A stretch of 64,000 nt of DNA, from NCBI GenBank assembly GCA_021904315.1, contig CM038919.1, positions 1-64,000 of the forward strand, given 5' to 3'. This document shows, in pieces, positions 2,946 through 49,795 of this stretch (the first letter of the stretch is position 1; every line of letters starts with the position of its first letter). The position numbers and the translations under genes are program-made. The notes below the pieces were generated by a model. It was not told where the DNA came from. It worked only from the letters and a program-made list of their open reading frames with translations, and searched no databases. Origin of the DNA: Sphagnum magellanicum. Lineage: Eukaryota; Streptophyta; Sphagnopsida; Sphagnales; Sphagnaceae.

Positions 2946-3591
2946 AACTAGATCCAACTACATATTCTTGGGTTTTTTGTATCCCCACGCACTTAATGAA
3001 TTGCATTATCCAAACTTTCAAATTTTGTGAAACACAGGGAAAGTCAACCAGAATCTGAAAAGTCAAACCCCCCCATATCTTCCAAATGGTGATAGTGTAA
3101 GCAAAATTTTTTACATCATTGGATTCAGAACATTTGAAAATGGGGGGGTAGGTCATCTCCACATATCTAAAAAATAACCGCAATTAGGTCAAAATGCCCA
3201 TCAAACACAAAAACATCAAATCTCCTATATCTTGCAAACTTGACACTTTTAAGCAAAAATAACTCCACCACTAGCTTTAAAACACTTGAAAATGGGGGGG
3301 TAGGTCACTTCAAAACTTTCAACATGTATCATAATTAACTCTTTATGCCCTCATCTATCCGGCCCCCCTGAAATTTCACACCCCCCATATCTTCCAAATG
3401 GTGATAGATTAAGCGAATTTTATTGCACCATTGGCTTCAGAACCCTTGAAAATGGGGGGGTAGGTCACCTCAAAACTCAAAAAAAAAAACCCAATTTTGG
3501 TGGGAACACCCATGTAACCCTAAACCCTAAACCCTAAAACCCTAAACCCTAAAACCCTAAACCCTAAACCCTAAACCCTAAACCCTAAACT
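2946..3591. repeat. Telomere-linked composite subtelomeric unit A
   Basis: Three sub-repeats of about 150-160 bp, each carrying a CCCCCATATCTTCCAAATGG-type motif and closing with ACTTGAAAATGGGGGGGTAG, followed by the end block CCAATTTTGGTGGGAACACC. The unit then runs directly into an interstitial CCCTAAA tract at about 3516-3590. Confidence 0.9.
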
Positions 3592-3800: not shown

Positions 3801-4430
3801 TATGCACTTTCTTAGGTTTTGAAATCCTTAAGCAACAACATAAACTGCATTGTCCAAACCCTTAAATGTTGTGACAGACAAGAAAAGTCAACCAAGGACT
3901 GGGAAAGTCAAACCCCCCCATATCTTCCAAATGGTGATAGTGTAGAGGAATTTTTTTACATCATTGGATTTAGAACACTTAAAATGGGGGGGGTAGGTCA
4001 CCTCCAAATATATAAAAAAAATCGCAATCAGGTCAAAATGCCCATGAAACACAAAAACCCCAAATCCCCTATATCTTGCAAACCTGACACTTTTAACCAA
4101 AAATAACTCCACCACTAGCTTTGAAACACTAGAAAATGGGGGGGTAGGTCACCTCAAAACTTTCAACATGTATCATAATTAACCCTTTATGCCCTCATCT
4201 ATCCGGCCCCCCTGAAATTTCACACCCCCCATATCTTTCAAATGGTGATGCTCTAGAAGAATTTTATTGCACCATTGGCTTCAGAACCCTTGAAAATGGG
4301 GGGGTAGGTCACTTCAAAACCTCAAAAAAAAAACCCAATTTTGGTGGGAACACCCATGTAACCCTAAAACCCTAAACCCTAAACCCTAAACCCTAAAACC
4401 CTAAAACCCTAAACCCTAAACCCTAAACCT
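3801..4430. repeat. Telomere-linked composite subtelomeric unit B
   Basis: A second copy of the composite unit seen at 2946-3591, in the same orientation and sub-repeat order, again ending in the block CCAATTTTGGTGGGAACACC and an interstitial CCCTAAA tract (about 4360-4428). Confidence 0.9.
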
Positions 4431-5275
4431 TGGCATAACTCCATAAATTTGGCAAAACTAACACATAACTTTATATTTTTCGCAAAACTTGGCATAACTC
4501 CATAAATTTGGCAAAACTAACACATAACTTTATATTTTTCGCAAAACTTGGCATAACTCCATAAATTTGGCAAAACTAACACATAACTTTATATTTTTGG
4601 CAAAACTTCATATAATTCCATATTTTTGGCAAAACTTCACATATTTCCATATTTTTGGCAAAACTAAAACAACTTTATATTTTTGGCAAAACTTGCCATA
4701 ACTCCATAAATTTGGCAAAACTAACACATAATTTTATATTTTTCGCAAAACTTCATATAATTCCATATTTTTGGCAAAACTAACACATAACTTTATATTT
4801 TTGGCAAAACTTCAGATAATTTCATATTTTTGGCAAAACTTCACATATTTCCATATTTTTGGCAAAACTTGGCGTAACTCCATAAATTTGGCAAAACTAA
4901 CACATAACTTTATATTTTTGGCAAAACTTCATATAATTCCATATTTTTGGCAAAACTAACACATAACTTTATATTTTTGGCAAAACTTGGCATAACTCCA
5001 TAAATTTGGCAAAACTTCATATAATTCCATAATTTTGGCAAAACTAAGACATTACTTTATATTTTTGGCAAAACTAAGACATACTTTATATTTTTGGCAA
5101 AACTAAGACATAACTTTATATTTTTGGCAAAACTAAGACATAACTTTATATTTTTGGCAAAACTTGGCATAACTCCATAAATTTGGAAAAACTAACACAT
5201 AACTTTATATAACCCCTAAACTTTAAACCCTATATTTTTGCCAAAACTTGAAATAATTTTATATTTTTGGCAAGG
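4431..5275. repeat. 29-30-bp satellite array, block 2
   Basis: Same satellite as 2276-2945, about 28 units, with locally homogenised runs (for example several consecutive GGCAAAACTAAGACATA units near 5040-5160) that show recent local amplification. Confidence 0.92.
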
Positions 5276-6308
5276 GTTTAGGGTAGAATACACAATGTGA
5301 TAACGTGGTGTACTAGTTTTACAAAAACGCCAACATCAACATCCCAGCCTTTGAAAATAAAGGGGCAAGCCCTGGAAACCTTGAAATTCTGTGCACATAC
5401 AGGAAAAGTCAACCAAGAACTGCAAAAGTCAAACACCCCTATATCTTCCAAATGGTGATAGATTAGGGAAATTTTTTTGCACCATCTTGTTTAAAACACT
5501 TGAAAATGGGGGGGGTACGTCACCTCCAAATCCCTAAAAAAAACCAAAATTAAGTCAAAATGCTCATGTAACCCAAAGACCCCAAATCTTCTATATCTTG
5601 CAAACCCTACACATTTTGCCAAAACTAACTTCACCATTAGCTTCAAAACACTTGAAAATGGGGGGGTACGTTACCTTGAAAGTTTCAAATTGTTTAATAA
5701 TTAACCCTTCATGCCCTCATCTATCCGGCCCCCCTGAAATTTCATACCCCCCATATCTTTCAAATGATGATAGATTAGGGAAATATTATTACACCATTGG
5801 CTTCAAAACACTTGAAAATGGGGGGGTAGGTCACATCAAAACCCCAAAAAAAAAACCCAATTTTGGTGGGAACACCCATGTAACCCTAAACAAAAGTCAC
5901 AATTGGGTCCAAATGCCCATGTAACCCAAAAACCCCAAATCTTCAATATCTTTCAGACCCTACATTTTTAGGCAAAAATAACTTCACTAATAGCTTTAAA
6001 ACACTTGAAAATGGGGGGGTAGGTCACTTCAAAACTTTGAACACATATCATAATTAACCCTTTATGCCCTCATCTATCCGGCCCCCCTAAAATTTCATAC
6101 CCCCTATATCTTTCAAATGGTGAACAATTATGGTGGGATTTTTACACCATTGGATTCACAACCCTTGAAAATGGGGGGGTAGGTCACATCAAAACCCCAA
6201 AAAAAAAACCCAATTTTGGTGGGAACACCCATGTAACCCTAAACCCTAAACCTAAACCCTAAAACCCTAAAACCCTAAAACCCTAAACCTAAACCCTAAA
6301 CCCTAAAC
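5276..6308. repeat. Telomere-linked composite subtelomeric units C and D
   Basis: Two further composite copies. Unit C (about 5380-5890) joins unit D after only one CCCTAAAC, and unit D ends in a long interstitial telomere tract (about 6231-6308). Each keeps the GGGGGGGTAG(G/C)TCAC sub-repeat ends and the GGTGGGAACACCCATGTAACC terminal block. Confidence 0.9.
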
Positions 6309-12605: not shown

Positions 12606-15583
12606 ATGGTATTCATGGCTAACTTCGAATGCCCCGAGTGCAACATTTTTTTTTCCGCCTCTCATCAACGTGATGGACATCGCCGATTGGTGCATCAATC
12701 CACTTGTAAGGTTCGCACTGCCATTAGTCGAATTACTGTCCACCGATCCATTGAAGGCAAATTTCCTCGCCCCGTTGATTGCTGCACAAGGGCATTTGAA
12801 CGCAGCGATAAGCTCCAGTGCCATTTCAAAGTGCAACATGTGGAACAAAACAATTCAGCCCTCAATGAGCTCCATGATGACAATGTGCAAAAGGTGATGT
12901 CGATGGGCATGTTAATTCAGCCACCCGTCGAACAAACACCGGAGTTGCTCCGTGATGTTGGCCTTGTTGTTCTCAACATCGTGGATGGCATTCGTCTACT
13001 GTTGTGCAAGGTTTGTGATGTATGTTTGGAGCCGAAGCCTTGCCAAGTGCATAACCACCTATTGGGGCACGACAATCATAGAGCTCCCAAACGGCATCGC
13101 AACGGTGGCCAACATCGTGTGATTACGATCCCACCTCTCACAGATTTTGCACCGTTGTTTGATGAGATTGAATTCACCCAATTGCAAGACCCTCGCCTTG
13201 AAAGGTATACCACATCTCCACCGCAGGAGCTTTTACCTGTGGTCCTAGGTATCATGGTCATCAATGGATATAGATGCAAGGCGGATGGATGTGCGTACTA
13301 TTCCGCTTCCAAGAGGACCATCGCCAATCATCGCCTAGCCAACCATTTTTTCTTACCAGCTAATGCTAGTTACCAACCGTGCCAAGTGCAGCACCTTTTT
13401 AGAAAGGTCGGGCACACTGCCTATTTTGGTGTCGACCACCAAAATATGGAGCTTGTGGGTGACCCGATGGGGCTCCAACTTAAGGAGCAAGTGTGTGCTT
13501 CGTTAGAGGCCCACGAATGTTCGGTATTGAATGTGGCACCAAATCCATCCATTCGTGAGTTAAGTCCATGGCTCAGGGTGTCTCGTTGGCACGCACTAGC
13601 TGTCAACCACATCATTCCAGCTTGTTACAACTCGATGGGAGCCCCCTCGATCCACCTCCCTCAGGTACTTCGACTGTTGAGATTCCGATGATTATTGACC
13701 GACCCAACACCCAGTGTCCGTTGCAATCTGATTGCGCGTCTCTCCTCGCATCGTTCATGTATTCGGTCCCACAGACTCCCGCTCAACCGGCCATCCCGCC
13801 TCCACCTCGAGATCAAACACACGAAGTGCGTGCTTTACGAGCTCTTCGTCGATTTAGCCATGAACAATGGACATGCAAGGAACAAGGCCTGGCTGTGACA
13901 TTAGTGTTGGAAAATAGACTTGACTTATTGGTGGTCATGCCCACTAGACATGGCAAATCAGCCGCGTTCATGATTCCACCCATGGTCACTGGTCGCACCA
14001 TCATCGTGGTGGTACCTCTCAGCATCCTTGTCAGCGAACACGAAGTTGATGCGAGTCGAGCTAGCTTACGATACGCAACCTATGGCACGGACACGATTAC
14101 GTTTGATGATCCTCCGTCCATCTTGTTCGTATCAGTGGAACGGGCAGCAACTCCCAGGTTTGTGGAACTCGCACATACATTGAACCATTTGCAAAAGCTT
14201 CATTGTGTTGTTGTGGATGATGCGCATTTGCTTTTGTCCGATTTCAGACCGGTCATGAAGCGCCTATTGCCGTTGTGGGCCGTGGGGTGCCAACTTGTCG
14301 CATTGACAGCCTCTTTGTCCCCCTCTCAAGAGACCGACCTTAAGATCCTGATGTCCACGTCACTCACCGTCATCCGGATGTCCACAGTGCGCCCGTTGAT
14401 TGGATATGTCGTCGATGAAGTGGTTGATGTCAATGATGAAATCATTCGACAACTTGTTGAATGGGATTGCGATGTGTCTTCCGAGACGGATAGGGCAATT
14501 GTATATTGCTTGACACGACAGTCTGTCGAACGTGTGGCATCGATCGCCAATAACGTGGCATGCGTCAGGACCGCCCATCTTCATGCCCATCTGGATGAAA
14601 ACGCTAAGAAAGCGCAATTACAATCATGGCTTTCGGGCGAAGCTCGGGTTATGGTGGCCACCGGGGTCATTGGGTGTGGGTACAACTACTCTCGGTCAGG
14701 CTGGTCATTCACCGTGGATCTTTTAGGTCTTTTGCTGCTCTGCACCAAGAGTCGGGCCGACTTGCTCGCGACGGTAAACCTGGTATTAGCAGAGTGATTT
14801 CTAGTGCAAAATCTAGAGCTGAAGCTTTGCACATCGATTCATCGTTCGTTGAACCCAATGCTTGGATCACGGACACGAAGAATTGTCGACGACACAACCT
14901 TCATTTGGCTGTGGATGGTCAATCACAACGGTGCAACCTAATTCCAACAACACAATCGTGCGACAATTGTGTACGACAATCGAGGGCGGTGTCACTAGAA
15001 CCCCCCCACCATTGCCGATGCTTAGGGTGCGAGCGACAGTGCTCACCTCCTTCATGAACGAGATTGTACATCCTTGAAGAATTTTCGTCGATTTGCGACT
15101 CCTGATGAACCCAATTGTCTCATGTGCAGTGTTTACGGCAATGCTAGAAACTTGTGTCACCCCAGTAAAAATTGTCCGTTGTTGCTGGATGGTTGTCGAT
15201 GCTTCAAATGTTTGGGATCGCATCCTAGGTCGGATTGCCCTAATTCCATTCCCCGGTCACCTGACAGTTGTCCCAAGTGCCACCTTTTGCACAACGGGCA
15301 AGCGTTAGGCAATGTCCAATTGCACGAAGGAAGGTACGGTGTTGATTGCCCGGGTCAAATTCGGGGTGAACGATACTGCATTCTTCTTTGGGCCATTTGG
15401 CGTCGCAACTCGTCAGACATGCACAAGGCCATGCCGGAATTGAAAGACATCACTCGCGATGAAAAATTGGCTCGATGGATGGGACTGAAGGCCTTGGGAC
15501 GATCTATCACCAACTTCACACGATTGGTAGATGCGTGCATTCGAATGCTGGAGCAAGACAATCATAGAAAAATACAATTCTAG
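12606..15583 (+). pseudogene. Telomere-linked RecQ-like helicase with OrsD-type zinc fingers (frame-broken)
   Basis: Four adjoining open segments (12606-13650, 13640-14690, 14690-15000, 15026-15583) read as one protein of about 980 residues with three frame changes. The N-terminal part has C2H2-type fingers: CPEC with H-x4-H at about 12627-12690, CKVC with H-x3-H, and CKADGC with H-x4-H near 13270-13340, spaced as in fungal OrsD/DUF3505 proteins. The middle has superfamily-2 helicase motifs: FSHEQW as a Q/0-like motif, TRHGKS (motif I), VVDDAH (motif II), ALTASL (III), ARVMVATG (V) and QESGRLARDG (VI, in the shifted frame), most like RecQ. The tail is Cys-rich (CLMC, CFKCLGSH with a following Cys, CPKC). 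ATG at 12606 or 12615 is the likely start. This order matches fungal telomere-linked helicases, and it lies 12.6 kb from the telomere. Family assignment is by motif only. Confidence 0.8.
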
Positions 15584-20647: not shown

Positions 20648-20883
20648 GGTCAACAAAAAAAGCCCCGCACCGCGCTAAAACAGCCCCGCACCACGCTCCC
20701 TTTTTGGTGGTCAAACAGCCCCCAGCCCCGCGCATTGCGAACGTAGTGCGCAGATCATATGTATAGGTCAACAAAAAAAGCCCCGCACCGCGTTAAAACA
20801 GCCCCGCACCACGCTCCCTTTTTGGTGGTCAAACAGCCCCCAGCCCCGCGCACTACGAGCGTAGTGCGCAGATCATATGTATA
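20648..20883. repeat. 118-bp GC-rich tandem pair
   Basis: Two near-identical copies, starting at 20648 and 20766, of a unit with GCCCCGCACCGCG, CCCCGCACCACGCTCCC, a GGTGGTC stretch and GTAGTGCGCAGATCATATG. It abuts the inverted composite unit. A diverged inverted relative is at about 61090-61250. Confidence 0.93.
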
Positions 20884-21505
20884 GGGTTAATTATTAATGA
20901 GTTTGAAAGTTTCAAGGTGACATACCCCCCCATTTTCATGTGTTCTGAAGCTAATGGTGGTGTTATTTTTGCTTAAAAGTGTAAGGTTTGGAAGATATTG
21001 AAGATTTGGGGTTTTGGGGTTACAGGGGCATTTTGGCCTAATTTTGAATTTTTTTTAGGGATTTGGAGGCGACCTACCCCCCATTTTCAAGTGTTTTGAA
21101 TCAAATGGTGCAAAAATATTTCCCTAATCTATCACCATTTGAAAGATATGGGGGGTTTGACTTTTGAGTCCCTAGTTGACTTTTCCTGTGCTGTCACATA
21201 ATTTGAATGTTTGGACATGGTTTAGGGTTTAGGGTTTAGGGGTGTTCCCACCAAAATTGGGTTTTTTTTTAGGGTTTTGAAGTGACCTACCACCATAATC
21301 TATCACCATTTGAAAGATATGGGGGGTATGAAATTTCAGGGGGGCCGGATAGATGAGGGCATAAAGGGTTAATTATGATACATGTTGAAAGTTTTGAGGT
21401 GACCTACCCCCCCATTTTCAAGTGTTTTGAAGCTAGTGGTGGAGTTTTTTTGCCTAAAAGTGTAGGGTTTGGAAGATATTGAAGATTTGGGGTTTTTGGG
21501 TTACA
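20884..21505. repeat. Inverted copy of the telomere-linked composite unit
   Basis: The composite unit of 2.9-6.3 kb appears here in opposite orientation: GTGACCTACCCCCCCATTTTC, GGGGGGCCGGATAGATGAGG and GGTGTTCCCACCAAAATTGG follow a TTTAGGG tract (about 21221-21243). The unit boundary again coincides with telomere repeats. Confidence 0.9.
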
Positions 21506-22818
21506 TGCAATATTTAGGTTGTCTAAAGTATTAAATAACTTTGATAAAACATTAATAACATTGACAAAAACTATAAAATCTTGTGTGAACACTTGTCAAA
21601 TTTTTCACAAATCAAAATTATTTGTTTGAAAATACATAAGTATGCCATGTGAATAAATCCCATAAGGTTGAAAATAATTCAAAAAACATTAATTTCATAT
21701 GGGTAGTTGCATATTTTGTATTGGTAAAAGGATGTTCAAAGAGTATAATCCCAATATATTTCCTCCATGGTGAAAGTTGTTGTCATAATAACATCACGTC
21801 ATTTTTAATTACAAAATCAATGTGACTTCACTTATTCAATTAGTTATTTTCAGTAATAAATATTCATTGTGATTGATTTTTAGTTGCCAAATGTAGTTGC
21901 AAAATGCAATTTTTCTATTAATGATAATAGTTTAGGTTTTTCTTTTCCATTTTCTTACAATTGGAGCATTTAAGACCCTTCACCCAATTTAGTGTTTTCC
22001 TTGGCATGGCAATGAAAGAATCGTTATCATTTTTCATGTCATTCCACCCCCTCACTGATGTGTTGTACAAAATAATCACTTGATTTTGGTGCCAAAAAAT
22101 GAAAAGGACATGATGAATGGAAAAGAAGAACACATGAAAAAAATAAACATACATGTTTTGTAGAATTTTCAACCTTGTTATTCAACATTTGCAAAAGAAT
22201 TGGAAAAGATCTAGCCATGATAACACGAATGTCCAAGATGTGTGTTTACACCTTCCTATGGATAAACACCTCCCCTCCCATAAATAAAACTCCAAAAAAA
22301 TACTTGGGACAAAGTTCAATAATCACACATTATGGCATCTTGCCACATGGCATGCCATGTTAGCATCACAAAATCATGAATTGTATTTATTCACTAAAAA
22401 GTTGCAATTTTTTAAAAATATAACTATATATATATATATAATATTTGCATTAAAAATCATCAAGTTGTCATATCAACTACAATTGCAAAACCATGGCACC
22501 ACAATGTCTTTTGCAACTATGGTCATTAACATGACCATGTAGTTACAATTGTAGTTGACAAAAACATTAATCATTTTGTTAACTAGTCATAAAACCCAAA
22601 ATGTGTTGTAGTGTCCTAAGCACTTTGCAAAGGAAGGCCAAAGGTTTTGCATAGAGGGCCATATGTGTGCTCTCAAAAGTTCCAACCAAGGAGCACAAAG
22701 ATCCCAAAAACGCATGTTGTAATGTTCGCACCATCTCCAATCCTCAGAATAACATCTTCAGTGGTGATAGATAATAGTATTGTCCACTTTGCTTGCAACC
22801 CACCTTTGTTTGACATAC
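21505..22818. repeat. Segmental duplication, copy 1
   Basis: About 1.31 kb matching 48236-49795 in the same orientation, from CAATATTTAGGTTGTCTAAAG to CAACCCACCTTTG. Both copies retain a minus-strand frame including NDSFIAMPRK and GLKCSNCKKMEKKN, and another with DGVNIAACVFGIFVLVGG at the far end, neither of which I recognise. Likely an old transposon or a duplicated block. This copy lacks the 241-bp insertion of copy 2. Confidence 0.88.
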
Positions 22819-34004: not shown

Positions 34005-34634
34005 CTCCTTCAACAGTCCCTACCCAATTAGCAATGGCATCACAAATCCAATCACCATATCCTAATTCCTCTCCTTCAAGTGTCCCTGCCCAATTAGCAA
34101 TGGCATCACAAATCCAATCACCATATCCTAAGAAACATGAAACACAGGTAGCCAACCAGTTCCAGGACATAAGGTATCTCACCTACAGAACGGGATCTGA
34201 CAGCCATTCCTCTCCTTCAAGTGTCCCTGCCCAATTAGCAATGGCATCACAAATCCAATCACCATATCCTAAGAAACATGAAACACAGGTAGCCAACCAG
34301 TTCCAGGACATAAGGTATCTCACCTACAGAACGGGATCTGACAGCCATTCCTCTCCTTCAAGTGTCCCTGCCCAATTAGCAATGGCATCACAAATCCAAT
34401 CACCATATCCTAAGAAACATGAAACACAGGTAGCCAACCAGTTCCAGGACATAAGGTATCTCACCTACAGAACGGGATCTGACAGCCATTCCTCTCCTTC
34501 AAGTGTCCCTGCCCAATTAGCAATGGCATCACAAATCCAATCACCATATCCTAAGAAACATGAAACACAGGTAGCCAACCAGTTCCAGGACATAAGGTAT
34601 CTCACCTACAGAACGGGATCTGACAGCCAAGGAT
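34005..34634. repeat. 141-bp minisatellite at the 3' end of the CRN-like gene
   Basis: Four near-identical 141-bp units start at 34071, 34212, 34353 and 34494, preceded by a 66-bp partial unit at 34005. On the minus strand each carries codons matching the C-terminus of the adjacent gene (WLSDPVL and TAG), immediately followed by GTGAGA, a donor-like site, then 55 bp later TTTCTTAG, an acceptor-like site. The unit is therefore a duplicated exon-end plus candidate mini-intron. The 279-codon plus-strand frame through the array exists because 141 is a multiple of three. Confidence 0.95.
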
Positions 34635-36267
34635 CACTCAATGCCATCACTGCAGTGCATTCCTTAGATCTAAGCTTCCTGATAAACTGCAGAGCAGATT
34701 CTGAAATCTCAGTCATCCAATGCACATCCTTTTCCAGAAGTCTGCCAAGCTGATACATATCTGACATGGGCGTGTACAAGTTGCCCTCCAACATCTCAAT
34801 GCTCCACTCTCTGAAATACTGAAATCCTTCTGGCAATCGGAAAGGATAAGCTGCTACTGTTTCCAGGTCAATTAGCATGAACTGCTCCTGTGATACCTGC
34901 ACAACATTAGGGAGTCGGACATCCCTGTGAACGAGGCCTGCCTCATGGAGGACAGACAGTGCTTCACACACATTCTTCGCCATCGTCCTGATACTTTGCT
35001 CAGACCTCAAAATGGGTGCGTGTCCAAGAGGACTTATCTCGACTGTGTAGGTTCCTGTGCGACTTATGTAGTCGTCTGATTTTTTGCCCATTAATTGTGG
35101 AAGGGAGTGACATCTTTCTCCAGCTTTGTAAGCCCGCAGTATCACATCCAATCCAGTCATCATTTCCCCACAAAAACTTTTAAAGTTCTTGATGGACTTC
35201 TTAACCCTATCAGGGAAGAAACATAGTGTCCTGTCTCCTACAATATCCTCAGTGAACATAGCATGGCGGCCTGGTACCTGCGGGACTGAGTCTATCATTT
35301 TCTTAATTAACTGATATGCGTAGCCAATGCTTAGCAGATACTGGCAGCGATCAACATCAGTTGACAGGTCAAGCGTTGGACCAACTCTTGTCACCACGCC
35401 ACTCTTGCCAATGAAAAGCCACTGGAATGCTGAGCCTGCCGCTATGTACCCCAGAATGAATTGTAACTCTCTGTAAAACATGGTGGAAAGTGGTCTCACC
35501 TTTGCTGCAAGATCAGCTTCAGCATCAGAAAGGCTGGAAAGCTTGTCTTCACCAATAAGGAAGGTGCATTCAGATGCGGTAAGAAGGGTATCAGGTCTTG
35601 ACCTTTTTTTCGTAGAGCTGGAACGACTACCAGCTGTCGTTTCATTAGAATTGAAAAAGAACTGGTAGGTGAATTTAGACGGGCTATAGGACCTGCACAG
35701 GTCAAAGATATTCCGCAGGAAGGATCCCATGAGAAATGATACATCCATCTCTGACACTACAGGGCCGAAAGAGACTCTCAGAGCGAATGTCAACCCAATA
35801 GGTACAGCCGAATCATCTGCTTCCATCAGAAAGCTCTCTGTCACATCAGGATTCTGCATCAACCTCTCATAATACATCCTCCTAACTACAGGAAGCTTTC
35901 CATGCTTCTCAGGAAACAATGCATTTGCAAGGTCATAGGCAAGTTGTGGGAGTGTGGTTAGCCCTGGCATCAGCATATGCTTGATCCATTCTCCAGAGCG
36001 ATCCTGCAGCAAGGCAATGCTATTTTGTCCAGATTGCATGAGCAGGAGCTCCTTCTCTCGCAGCTGTTCTTTCTCCTTCATCAAATGATCTTCCTTCTTC
36101 ATCAAAAGTTCTAGCCACTGGGCTTTCTCCCTCATCAAATGATCTTCCCTGTTCCACAAGTGTGCCCTCTCAGCCTCAGGCATCTCCTCTTGCAAGCGCT
36201 TCCTAAGCTCTTCCAACTCCCCCTGCACTTTCAGTATCCTGTCTTGCACCTCCAGGATGGTTGTCAT
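34606..36267 (-). CDS. CRN-like protein: coiled coil, PD-(D/E)xK nuclease and kinase-like domain
   Basis: An uninterrupted 553-residue frame from ATG at 36267. Order: charged Leu/Glu/Lys coiled coil (residues about 5-80, e.g. KKEDHLMKEKEQLREKELLL); a conserved linker; a restriction-endonuclease-like module with PD at 225-226 and E-D-K at 240-242 (RPDT, then LIGEDK); and a C-terminal kinase-like domain with HRDVRLPN (catalytic loop, 447-454) and LIDLE (467-471) where kinases have DFG. The nuclease-kinase pairing and the HRDxRxPN/LIDxE style match Crinkler-type (CRN) proteins known from oomycetes, fungi and also plants; this is recognition by motif. The glycine loop is not obvious, so kinase activity is uncertain. 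The frame stays open upstream of 36267, but that part looks intronic; see the next entry. A decayed paralog lies 1.2 kb downstream. Confidence 0.7.
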   Translation of the reverse strand: MTTILEVQDRILKVQGELEELRKRLQEEMPEAERAHLWNREDHLMREKAQWLELLMKKEDHLMKEKEQLREKELLLMQSGQNSIALLQDRSGEWIKHMLMPGLTTLPQLAYDLANALFPEKHGKLPVVRRMYYERLMQNPDVTESFLMEADDSAVPIGLTFALRVSFGPVVSEMDVSFLMGSFLRNIFDLCRSYSPSKFTYQFFFNSNETTAGSRSSSTKKRSRPDTLLTASECTFLIGEDKLSSLSDAEADLAAKVRPLSTMFYRELQFILGYIAAGSAFQWLFIGKSGVVTRVGPTLDLSTDVDRCQYLLSIGYAYQLIKKMIDSVPQVPGRHAMFTEDIVGDRTLCFFPDRVKKSIKNFKSFCGEMMTGLDVILRAYKAGERCHSLPQLMGKKSDDYISRTGTYTVEISPLGHAPILRSEQSIRTMAKNVCEALSVLHEAGLVHRDVRLPNVVQVSQEQFMLIDLETVAAYPFRLPEGFQYFREWSIEMLEGNLYTPMSDMYQLGRLLEKDVHWMTEISESALQFIRKLRSKECTAVMALSDPWLSDPVL

Positions 36268-37560
36268 CCTGCCAGCAAAGGTACATAACCATAACCATAA
36301 CTCACAAAGCAGCATCAACATACTCATATACAAAACCAAAAAAACACAGAACAATTGCAAGGGCTGGAAAAAAACCAGCGCAAAGCAAAGCAAAAGCACA
36401 TGATGCACATGATGTGCTTTTGCATTCAATTTCAACTACATGACGTTGTTGGTGGTGGTGATGGCAGAAAGATACCTTGTGCAACTCGGTCTACACAATG
36501 CAACACAACCCCTGTCTCCTCCAAAGCTTTCTTTGCTGCTCGAACAACAAAGCGCTCACACCTGACACCCGTCAAGAAAGAAATGCTGCTACTGCAGGAG
36601 CACTGCGAAAGAGAACAGGTAACAAACTATCTCAGCAGCAGCAGAAGATTGTTTCAACCTGACTCTTGCCAACCGAGACAAAGAAAAAAGCAAACAAAAC
36701 AAAACAGCAATCCCACAACCCTAATCCTCGGCAGGACGTATTCGGCCAGAAAAACTTGGTGTTTTCATCTTCTTCCTGAAGCCTCGGAGAAGCGTCTGAC
36801 GCCGTTTGTTTCTTCTCCTTCAACTCTTCGCTCGGCTTTTTGTTTATCTATAAACTTCTCAAGCCTGGAAGGCAGGAAGGGGGAGGAGGCCTTGGCATCA
36901 CGAGAAGGAGAAAAGTATGCAATCGACGGGGGTGCAATAGAAGGCAACGGGGCAATAGCAGCGTCGGCCGCAACTAGTCTTGTGATAGAAGACGAAGAAG
37001 TAGAAACAAAGAAGAAGAAGAAACAAGACCTGGTTTTCGACTCTGCTGCTCCTGCTGGTGGTTCACGGAGCCTTTGGAAAACTGATAAAAAAGAGCAGCA
37101 CGGCGGTCCCTCCCTCAAGGATCGTTTTGTGTCCGGCAGTTGCTGCTCACCGTTTGCGGATGCGACCGAATCGTAACAACCACAGTAGTTTTTTTCCCGC
37201 AAAAAGAAACCGGAAAGGCAGGGGAGTTTGGAAATGCGTAAGCTACTCACTCCCCGCGAGGGAGGGACTGGAACCCTACCTGTAGCAACCACGAAGAAGA
37301 CGACGGAATGCGCATAGTACTACCTCTTCTTCTTCTTCTTCTTCTTCTTGACCTCTGAACATCTGCAAAGAAGCTCTTATTCTTTTCTCTTGTCGAAATC
37401 AATCTGCAGAAAGAAGGATTTGCTGAAGCGATCAAGAAAGAGTCTAAGACTTTTTCCGAGCATCTGTTCTTGGACAAAGCATGAAACCCTAGACTACAAA
37501 CATACAGTGGTTTGTCAGAGATCTTAGAGAGGCAACAAACAGGTGCCAGTCTTTTCAATT
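36268..37560 (-). other. GC-richer 5' region of the CRN-like gene with candidate exon
   Basis: Composition is richer in G+C than the flanks, as for exons or promoter. On the minus strand a candidate exon at 36602-36476 is bordered by TTTCGCAG and AAG/GTATCT and reads VRCERFVVRAAKKALEETGV; joined to an acceptor at GTGCAAG near 36243 it would enter the CRN-like frame. A (CTT)n microsatellite is at 37324-37349, and AAACCCTAG (telo-box-like) is at 37484-37492 on the plus strand. Long frames on both strands at 36355-37292 conflict, so none is called. Confidence 0.4.
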
Positions 37561-46478: not shown

Positions 46479-48235
46479 CACCACATAATTATTTAATAAT
46501 ATGCAATTTGAAACATTAAAAGCTTATGAATTAAAAGGGAAAATAACTAGAAAGTAGACCTATGTATACACTTAATAATCATATTATAAGTTTGTAGATG
46601 ATCAAACACATAATTAATGCACAAATAAATGATTAATATTTTATAATTTGGAGGAAATTTGTTTTAAAAAAGATTCCCAAAAAATCGAAAACAATGCTAA
46701 AGTTTTTGAAACCATAAAATTAAATTAAAAATTGATGCCTATAATACAATTATCATGTCGAGCCATTGGGAACGCAGTGAATCAAAAAGATTATGTTCTC
46801 TAACTAGGTATAAAGTAGCCATCCAGACTAGGTATCATGCGGAGGGGCCATTGGGAATGCAATGAATCAAAAAGACTATTGGGGGACCAGATCGGATCGA
46901 TGAGAATCTTCATCCAATGCAGATGAATGGAACTCCCAATATAGTTGTTAATTAGCCCTAGGCTTGCAGTCGTCCATAGGGTTCTAATTGTTGGAATTGT
47001 AGGGTAAAAAAATCTTTAGAAAAAGTTCAACAATAATCGTAAGGTACTTTTTGGGGAAGATTTTTAATTTGTCTTGATCTCTCTAACAAATCATTTAATG
47101 TGGAAGGTGGGAATGAGTTCAAGTACATTTAGGAACTCCTTTATTTTTTGGGTTTGCAAATTGGGAGTGAAGAATCAAGGTTTTTGTTTTCAATTTTGTG
47201 AGGTAGGTCGACTAGCAATAATCCACAAGAGGATTTAGCCAAATTTGCATAGGGGTCACATATAAAAGTAGATTTTTTTCAAACTCCACTATCTACTGAG
47301 GATGTACAAGAACTGTGAAATGAATTGTTGCAATATTTTAATTCATCAGTGATACCCCTAGCAATGATTTTTTTGGTGGCAGAGGAAATATTTAGTCACA
47401 ATCTTTGAAAAACATTTGCAACATAAGGCTATTTTTATTTTCAAGAATTAAATCTAATTTTCATTATTTCGATTACTATAGCTAGAATTTTAACAACCAA
47501 ATTAAAATAAGATTTAGGATTTCACTGTAATTTTAGTGATTTAATTCTTTTAATTCTCAATATTTCAATTAGCATAATTTTCAAAAATTTCAGTACTATA
47601 ATCTTAAGTAATTGAATTTATGGAGTTATAATAAATCAACCAATAAAAACACAAGTTGTGTAATTACATTGAAGAATCTAGATTTTTGATGTAGATAATT
47701 ACTTGATAGGAAATTAATTGAGATATCTAAATTTTATATTAATTGGTACTTAGTTTTAAAAAACCTAAAATCAATTCGAAACACAAAACATGTTGGAGAA
47801 TCCCTTTGAAAATGTGTGGTTGAAAAAAATAAATTCAAGTAACCTATAACCAAAAGATTAAACCCATATGGTTTAGAAATTAATTCCATCTCACAAATTA
47901 TATGATGCAATGTGCCTCCTCTTGTTATTTACATTAAAATACATGTGCCAACATGGTGTGCATTAAAAAATGAACAACCTTAAAAAAAAAACATGAAATA
48001 AAAAAATTTACATGGTTATTTTTCTATTAATTCAACTACCTTCCTATTTACCTAAGCTGGCTAAATTAAATAAGTAGGGGGTCATCCTTACCTACCCACT
48101 AAGTAGGTTTAGATAGGTAGGTAACTAGGTATTTGACTAGGTGGCTAGGTCAATTAAATGGGCAAGACTTACTTACCTATCTACCTACCCATATATTAAC
48201 TTTCATTCATTTTCACATTTCAATAATTTTACCAC
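46479..48235. other. AT-rich DNA with a short direct duplication
   Basis: GCCATTGGGAAYGCARTGAA followed by TCAAAAAGAYTAT occurs at about 46765 and 46848 (83-bp offset), probably debris of another element. No gene is recognised in the rest. Confidence 0.5.
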
Positions 48236-49795
48236 ATGGCAATATCTAAGTTGTCTAAAGTATTAAATAACTTCACCAAAACATTAAATAAAATTGACAA
48301 AAACTATAAAATCTTGTGTGAACATTTGTCAAAATTATTTGACTGAAAATACATAAGTATGCCATGTGAATTAATCCCATAAGGTTGAAAATAATTCAAA
48401 AAACATTAGTTTCATATGGGTAGTTGCATATTTTGTATTGGTAAAAGGATGTTCAAAGAGTATAATTCCAGGACATCTCCTCCACGGTGAAAGTTGTTGT
48501 CATAATAACATCATGTCATTTCTAATTACAAAATTAATGTGACTTCACTTATTCAATTAGTTGTTTTTAGTAATAAATATTCAATGTGATTGATTTTTAG
48601 TTGCCAAATGTATTCGCAAAATGCAATTTTTCTATTAATGATAATAGTTTAGGTTTTTCTTTTCCATTTTTTTACAATTGGAGCATTTAAGACCCTTCAC
48701 CCAATTTAGTATTTTCCTTGGCATGGCAATGAAAGAATCGTTGTTATTTTTCATGTCATTCGACCCCCTCAATGATGTGTTGTACAAAATAATCACTTGA
48801 TTTTGGTGCCAAAAATTGAAAAAAGACCTTATGAATGCACAAGAAGAACACATGAAAAAAATAAACATACATGCTTTGTAGAATTTTCAATCTTGTTATT
48901 CAACATTTGCGAAAGAATTGGAAATGATCTAGCCATGATTTAACACTAATGTCCAAGATGTCTGTTTACACATTCCTATGGATAAACATCATTTTGGTTA
49001 TTTCCCTTCCCATAAATAAAACTTCAAAAAAATACTTGGGAAAAAATTCAATAATCACACATTATGGCATCTTGCCACCTGGCATGCCATGTTAGCATCA
49101 CAAAATCATGAATTGTAATCACTAAAAAGTTGGAAAAGCCAATACAATTTACTTATTTAATTTAAAATGGTTATATATATAACACATATTTGCATTAAAA
49201 ATCATCAAGTTGTCATATTAACTACAATTGCAAAACCATGGCACCACAATGTCTTTTGCAACTAGTTGATCCCTTTTGGGACCTGGAGTGGAGGTAGGCC
49301 TAGCGCCCAATATTATGAAGGTATTAATATTTTTAATGGCAAATTTAATTAAGAAATTTTCATATAATTATGACAGAATAATTCAAATGTTGTGAAAGAA
49401 AGGCAACAAGAAAAAAAAATCTTTACTTTGAAAGTGTTTGAAATGATGCCACATGGCACCTTAAAATTTCAGATTGCATTTTGAGCCTTCAAGCCTACCT
49501 CCACTAACTATGGTCATTAACATGACCATGTAGTTACAATTGTAATTGAAAAAAACATTAGTCATTTTGTTAACCGGTAATAAAACCCAAAATGTATTGT
49601 AGTGTCCTAAGCCCTCTGCAAAGGGAGGCCAAAGGTTTTGCATAGAGGGCCATATGTGTACTCTCAAGAGTTCCACCAACGAGCACAAAGATCCCAAAAA
49701 CGCATGCTGCAATGTTCACACCATCTCCAATCCCCACTTTTCGGTGGTGATAGATAATAGTATTGTCCACTTTGCTTACAACCCACCTTTGTTTA
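48236..49795. repeat. Segmental duplication, copy 2
   Basis: Matches 21505-22818 in the same orientation, including CATAAGGTTGAAAATAATTC, GCATATTTTGTATTGGTAAA and CTTGCCACNTGGCATGCCATG. It is longer by the 241-bp insertion at 49265-49505 plus a 5-bp target duplication; once those are removed the lengths agree closely. Confidence 0.88.
49265..49505. mobile_element. 241-bp MITE-like insertion with AACTA target-site duplication
   Basis: The undisturbed paralog at about 22510 reads GCAACTATGGTC. Here AACTA (49260-49264) is followed by 241 bp and then AACTA again (49506-49510). The element ends in AAGCCTACCTCCACT, and AGTGGAGGTAGGCC begins 22 bp inside the left end, giving an inverted repeat of about 13 bp. 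It has no coding capacity. The 5-bp duplication and inverted repeat suggest a non-autonomous DNA transposon; the family is not known. Confidence 0.75.

Follow-up and report, generated by a model that had tools for sequence, protein, structure and literature searches.

The question raised by the locus at 12606..15583, in the 64,000-nucleotide stretch of Sphagnum magellanicum DNA analysed here (the window), is whether a plant carries its own branch of the telomere-linked helicases (TLHs), and in what state. The explanation that we favour, with a probability of roughly 0.78, is that the locus represents a TLH-type gene copy in a Sphagnum subtelomere that has decayed and lost an internal part, and that it belongs to a branch of the TLH family found in plants.

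To place the locus on its chromosome, the repeats around it were mapped. The window begins with a degenerate telomere-type array at 1-464 (64.4 copies of the unit CCCTAAA on the + strand according to TRF, with 79% matches), which holds 40 exact copies of CCCTAAA and none of TTTAGGG, and a + strand CCCTAAA array in this position is oriented as expected at a left chromosome end. The TLH-type gene starts about 12.1 kb from it, and a TTTAGGG-type array is present near the gene, where a first-pass annotation of the letters had reported a telomere. Telomere repeats also occur farther inside, in three interstitial blocks (3516..3590, 4360..4429, and 6235..6308) that terminate copies of a repeated telomere-associated module of ~0.5 kb, at 3012-3590, 3856-4429, and 5734-6308, respectively. 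Another copy of the module lies at 5376-5891, and an inverted copy with short TTTAGGG stretches was found at 20880..21507. Since modules are located on both flanks of the TLH-type pseudogene, it lies within the domain that they bound. Passages of a study of three Sphagnum isolates describe TTTAGGG telomeres with a mean TRF of ~1.35-1.86 kb, and in those passages the presence of interstitial telomere repeats in Sphagnum is left undecided (PMC10856949).

Several other features of the window were recorded. A 29-bp satellite accompanies the telomere-associated modules, at 2273-2950 and 4434-5273. An open frame of 316 aa adjoins the telomere array on the - strand (635-1585), has no Pfam match at E <= 0.1, and is present in a single copy within the 64-kb window. 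Farther inside, a 609-aa frame (34606-36435, - strand) has a partial protein-kinase match (PF00069, E 7.8e-9), and its end is overlapped by a perfect 141-bp tandem array (34065-34629). Positions 21503-22000 and 48234-48717 share a repeat of ~500 bp with 90.8% identity, likely a dispersed one. Rfam and tRNA scans of the 64-kb window returned no match.

The reading frame of the TLH-type locus is broken four times, giving five pieces, all on the + strand, and the small breaks may be real or assembly errors. Piece 1 (12606..13622), which is 77% identical to the Sphagnum balticum protein P0005 in tblastn, contains C2H2-type fingers and an OrsD region; the OrsD match (PF12013; 12990..13346) reached 37.0 bits (E 5.4e-9) with a gathering score of 26.6, which bears out the annotated combination of OrsD-like region and C2H2 fingers. 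Piece 2 (13622..14689) carries helicase motifs I-V, with motifs I and II altered, and is 84% identical to P0003 and 90% identical to P0001 over 312 residues; its Pfam matches are DEAD (13883-14326, E 1.6e-13) and Helicase_C (14474-14692, E 5.5e-7). Piece 3 (14692..15006), in another frame, contains helicase motif VI and a zinc-ligand-like stretch, CRR...CDNC (87% to P0001), and is followed, again with a change of frame, by the short piece 4 (15003..15062; 95% to P0001 over 20 residues). Piece 5 (15059..15583; 93% to P0001) includes the stop codon and the expected Cys-rich tail, which spans about 15.07-15.58 kb. Four ORFs were covered by the Pfam scan of the locus, and the OrsD, DEAD, and Helicase_C matches fall in two of them.

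In addition to the frame changes, the locus carries substitutions at positions that its relatives conserve. Motif I reads MPTRHGK, with Arg for Gly, and motif II reads DDAH, whereas all four relatives compared (P0001-P0004) have MPTGHGK and DEAH. In the second finger, Arg has taken the place of the first Cys, which P0005 keeps. A full set of RecQ-like motifs had been annotated; the motifs are all in position, but with broken frames and altered motifs I and II the set is positional only and does not describe a working enzyme. The locus is a pseudogene, and cannot be working. It has also lost its middle, at a junction with a change of frame (13605..13640, + strand). Residue 101 of the relative P0121 ends at 13622, and residue 109 of P0003 starts there; because residues 1-92 of P0003 correspond to residues 589-680 of P0121, ~595 residues that relatives have between OrsD and helicase are gone from the window copy. 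In-frame stops are absent from the best-aligned piece of each frame, so the decay looks young; two alignments that cross frame changes contain one stop each. The window contains one copy of the TLH-type gene.

When the joined conceptual protein was searched, 883 proteins were found at E <= 0.001 among 8,000 scored, and the best 120 were examined. The best matches were moss-type rather than fungal: the first six (P0001-P0006) share 77-87% identity with the query over 25-61% of its length, and the best match of each piece is 77-95% identical (P0005, P0003, P0001). A moss name is attached only to P0005, an 'unnamed protein product [Sphagnum balticum]' encoded on a sequence of 19,399,783 bases; P0001-P0004 and P0006, which come from JGI, ENA or NCBI, are termed moss-type by similarity. 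Their clusters contain 112 member sequences for P0001, 25 for P0121, and 16 each for P0005 and P0006, so that moss-type sequences are common, although cluster sizes do not give the copy number per genome. No intact full-length moss-type protein was among the matches listed, and in the moss-type relatives OrsD and helicase were observed on different proteins rather than together. Pfam detected OrsD above its cut-off in both P0005 and P0006 (38.5 and 41.7 bits). As far as these relatives indicate, zinc fingers and OrsD were probably followed in the parent protein by a central domain, then by a RecQ-like helicase, and finally by a Cys-rich tail, like in fungal TLHs.

To compare this arrangement with that of fungal proteins, a fungal-type set of 118 rows (P0122-P0239) was drawn from a search in which 483 proteins passed and 120 were listed. 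The query was a composite in which a consensus sequence served as part of the bait, and the rows are real proteins sampled towards that bait. Organism names accompany 20 of the 118 rows, 19 of them fungi and one (P0160) a plant, and two rows are named telomere-linked helicase 1. An alignment from OrsD to the tail was obtained for seven moss-type rows together with 14 from the fungal-type set. We then used a TLH profile made from 54 full-length fungal-type proteins, with moss-type rows left out and E-values given for a database size of 5.8 billion. It matched the central regions of P0121 (74.7 bits, E 8.1e-16), P0006 (69.6 bits, E 2.9e-14), and P0004 (48.5 bits, E 6.4e-8), and none of 18 reversed or shuffled decoys scored above 5 bits. 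The TLH-type central region is thus present in these three relatives, and it is absent from the window copy. In the OrsD region the same profile gave only 5.6 bits for P0005 and 9.5 bits for P0006. Over the helicase part, the window copy and P0001-P0004 scored 146-171 bits, overlapping the 127-179 bits of 20 RecQ rows; accordingly, it is OrsD, the central region, and the domain order that place these proteins among the TLHs. Domain order and the shared central region support the view that the moss-type relatives, which are co-linear with fungal TLHs, are of the same family. The annotated kinship with fungal TLHs therefore holds for the relatives in these two respects, while the window copy is dead and lacks the centre.

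The helicase part would also be consistent with an ordinary eukaryotic RecQ pseudogene that lies near a telomere by chance: the closest solved structures to the P0004 helicase are RecQ5, bacterial RecQ, and BLM, and helicase scores, as noted above, fail to separate TLH from RecQ. The remaining domains argue against this, and we consider it highly improbable. Next to the helicase piece lies one with finger and OrsD sequence, the relatives possess the TLH-type central region, and no Pfam match to RQC, HRDC or the RecQ zinc-binding domain was obtained, although nearly all listed RecQ rows have these. The outcome that the first-pass annotation had named as fatal to its proposal, an ordinary plant RecQ without OrsD, was therefore not what we found. 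An ordinary RecQ gene was likewise rejected on domain content. Among GTDB genomes, 66 loci with 25-33% identity were taken from the listing as ordinary bacterial RecQ, and four scans of viral contigs (with P0004, A2, P0007, and P0001) found no TLH relative.

The position of the moss-type helicases was examined in a tree of 69 rows, in which the fungal-type rows were the first with a helicase stretch of >250 residues, minus one dropped for length. The tree is unrooted and has long branches. Five moss-type rows formed one clade (100/98), 45 fungal-type rows formed another, which includes P0160, and 18 RecQ rows, labelled bacterial since the names given are all bacterial, formed a third, so that moss-type, fungal-type, and RecQ rows are three separate groups. 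An unrooted, long-branched tree indicates that the moss-type rows do not fall within the fungal-type rows sampled, and does not indicate their origin. These relationships support a separate deep branch for the moss-type family. One ENA protein, P0007, joined the moss-type clade (100/99) on a long branch, and its provenance may offer a clue to where the family came from.

A deep moss-type branch also makes recent contamination unlikely. If a fungal contaminant or a chimeric contig had recently brought a fungal subtelomere gene into the plant assembly, a protein of an otherwise fungal type would be explained, and there is an apparent instance of just such an event: P0160, 'RecQ helicase L2' of Tanacetum cinerariifolium, groups inside the fungal-type TLHs beside P0159, and probably stems from a fungal contaminant in a plant assembly. 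For the present locus we consider contamination very improbable. The pieces are 77-95% identical to moss-type proteins, whereas seven fungal-type proteins are only 27-30% identical over the main helicase piece, and the moss-type clade stands apart from the fungal-type rows. Moreover, with a GC3 of 0.50-0.52 the pieces match the kinase-like ORF of 609 aa elsewhere in the window (0.50), the relative P0005 sits on a 19.4-Mb S. balticum sequence, and repeats with telomere-type blocks flank the gene on both sides.

The central region that the window copy has lost was examined in its relatives, using an alignment (A1) of 75 rows with residues numbered after P0121. Near-invariant positions are Arg511-x2-Glu514, Tyr-His-Lys545-Gly, Tyr-Arg634, His660, and Tyr669. 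In its column the first Arg makes up 72 of 73 letters (P0004 has Cys there), and Lys and the second Arg each make up 73 of 73; for His the count is 71 of 72, and for Tyr it is 72 of 72. This order, R..K..R..H-x8-Y, which is common to fungal-type and moss-type rows, is the order of the catalytic residues of tyrosine recombinases, and the step of nine residues from His to Tyr is like that of XerD, for which positions were checked. The R-K-R-H/W-Y pattern was matched by 113 of 118 fungal-type rows, some of them picked with a bait that already held the recombinase pattern, as well as by P0121 and P0004, and by none of 113 other rows, mostly RecQ. P0006, P0003, P0005, and P0001, in which the region is incompletely covered, did not match. 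When the conserved columns were permuted, the full signature appeared in 163 of 200,000 trials, and without the Glu in 1,053 of 50,000, the spacing windows having been fixed after the data were seen.

Profile comparisons gave a less uniform answer. In global hhalign, a joint profile of 71 rows scored 17.7 against 16 known recombinases, compared with at most 12.1 in 100 shuffles, and the score for a control region from these proteins was 3.1; the joint alignment has a probability of 5% and leaves the second Arg box unmatched. Profiles of the fungal-type rows only (11.1) and moss rows only (4.1) were near or below the best joint-profile shuffle, and local hhalign with the joint profile gave 19.8, versus 19.9 in shuffles. 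HMMER searches with the TLH domain against the 16 known recombinases reached at most 1.1 bits, compared with 3.4 for decoys, and those in the other direction reached 6.7, compared with 6.0. A Pfam scan of 10 central-region rows matched no recombinase family and gave weak matches only (e.g., HTH_62 in 2 of 10, best E 0.057), a PDB profile search with the central region found no recombinase, and no report of a recombinase in TLHs was found in a literature search judged partly by title.

The residue pattern and the profile results pull in different directions, and we give about even odds that the central region is a tyrosine-recombinase-like domain. That it is instead a DNA-binding or structural domain specific to TLHs, with recombinase-like residues that arose by chance, seems to us only a little less probable than an even bet. 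Such a domain would account for the lack of support for a recombinase from Pfam, the PDB profile search, HMMER with decoys, and local hhalign, and also for the low single-group scores and the incomplete joint alignment in global hhalign. It accounts less well for the near-invariant Arg, Lys, Arg, His, and Tyr columns with the XerD spacing, the rarity of the signature among column permutations, and the margin of the joint global score over every shuffle.

Fungal TLHs, which lie in recombining subtelomeric repeats, are thought to aid the copying or exchange of chromosome-end DNA, and by analogy the moss-type family may act in the same way. The fingers of the moss-type protein would bind end-proximal DNA, its helicase would unwind that DNA, and the central region, whose residue pattern is like that of tyrosine recombinases, may cleave the DNA and join it again. 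We infer family activity of this kind, as we do the recombinase reading and a spread of the family with chromosome ends, and we hypothesize linkage of the moss-type family to ends from one copy, the one ~12.1 kb from the array. On a broader and rather doubtful proposal, the TLHs of fungi and moss would be fusions of a tyrosine recombinase with a RecQ helicase, ancient mobile elements of chromosome ends with a lineage in land plants, and the locus described here would be the wreck of one that has lost its recombinase.

A moss mobile element with recombinase and helicase could also be dispersed, with no preference for telomeres, and the window copy could then be near an end by chance. The recombinase-like residues of the central region, the large protein clusters (e.g., the 112 members of P0001), and the death of the window copy, which is common for transposon copies, are all as expected for such an element. 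On the other side, the sole copy that was placed sits between modules with telomere repeats, although this is one copy only, and the fungal relatives are described as end-linked in passages of three papers (PMC10532341, PMC12857005, PMC5576322). We regard dispersal without telomere preference as rather less likely, and retain a subtelomeric TLH-type pseudogene as the preferred explanation.

Among known systems, those nearest to the moss-type family are the fungal TLHs with OrsD, including Pyrenophora P0136 and P0186 (both named telomere-linked helicase 1), UTASa/UTASb of U. maydis, and tlh of F. oxysporum. In the full-length fungal-type proteins compared, OrsD, the central region, the RecQ-like helicase, CRR...CDxC, and the Cys-rich tail come in the same order, and nearness to telomere repeats is a further point in common. 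In contrast, the family described here is in a moss host with TTTAGGG telomeres and forms a separate deep branch, and the window copy is dead and has no centre. Ordinary RecQ proteins (RecQ5, BLM, bacterial RecQ) are alike in the helicase core; they differ in that moss-type proteins have fingers and OrsD ahead of the helicase and show none of the three accessory RecQ matches in Pfam. Tyrosine recombinases (XerD, Cre, lambda Int) resemble the relatives' central region in residue order, whereas a clear profile-level match is lacking, the HxxR box has not retained its His, and the window copy has lost the region. Cryptons belong among the tyrosine recombinases, and the Y' element of S. cerevisiae has a helicase gene within a subtelomeric repeat.

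Passages of published work describe further fungal cases. In Colletotrichum higginsianum, DHX_G198, DHX-chim_G203, and DTX-chim_G199 are end-adjacent elements in which telomere repeats are embedded and which encode a helicase and a DUF3505 (= OrsD) domain; they are single full-length copies, found at all 24 subtelomeres, unlike the one broken moss copy 12 kb inside (PMC5576322). Similar passages place fungal TLHs, or helicase elements that carry OrsD/DUF3505, close to chromosome ends (PMC10532341), and fungal TLHs at or near such ends (PMC12857005), report that fission yeast can do without its tlh genes (PMC8466458), and state for subtelomeric RecQ helicases that nothing beyond the helicase core was found (PMC7473861). 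The literature search, mostly judged short of full text, found no plant TLH, and the main text of the Sphagnum genome paper contains none of the terms telomer, horizontal, helicase, fungal or fungi (PMC9946827).

In the literature found, TLH genes have so far been described from fungi. A plant branch of the family, if true, would mean that helicase elements linked to chromosome ends are not confined to fungi, and a component of moss subtelomeres could then be named. Should the central domain prove to be a recombinase, the way in which TLHs spread between chromosome ends would become directly testable.
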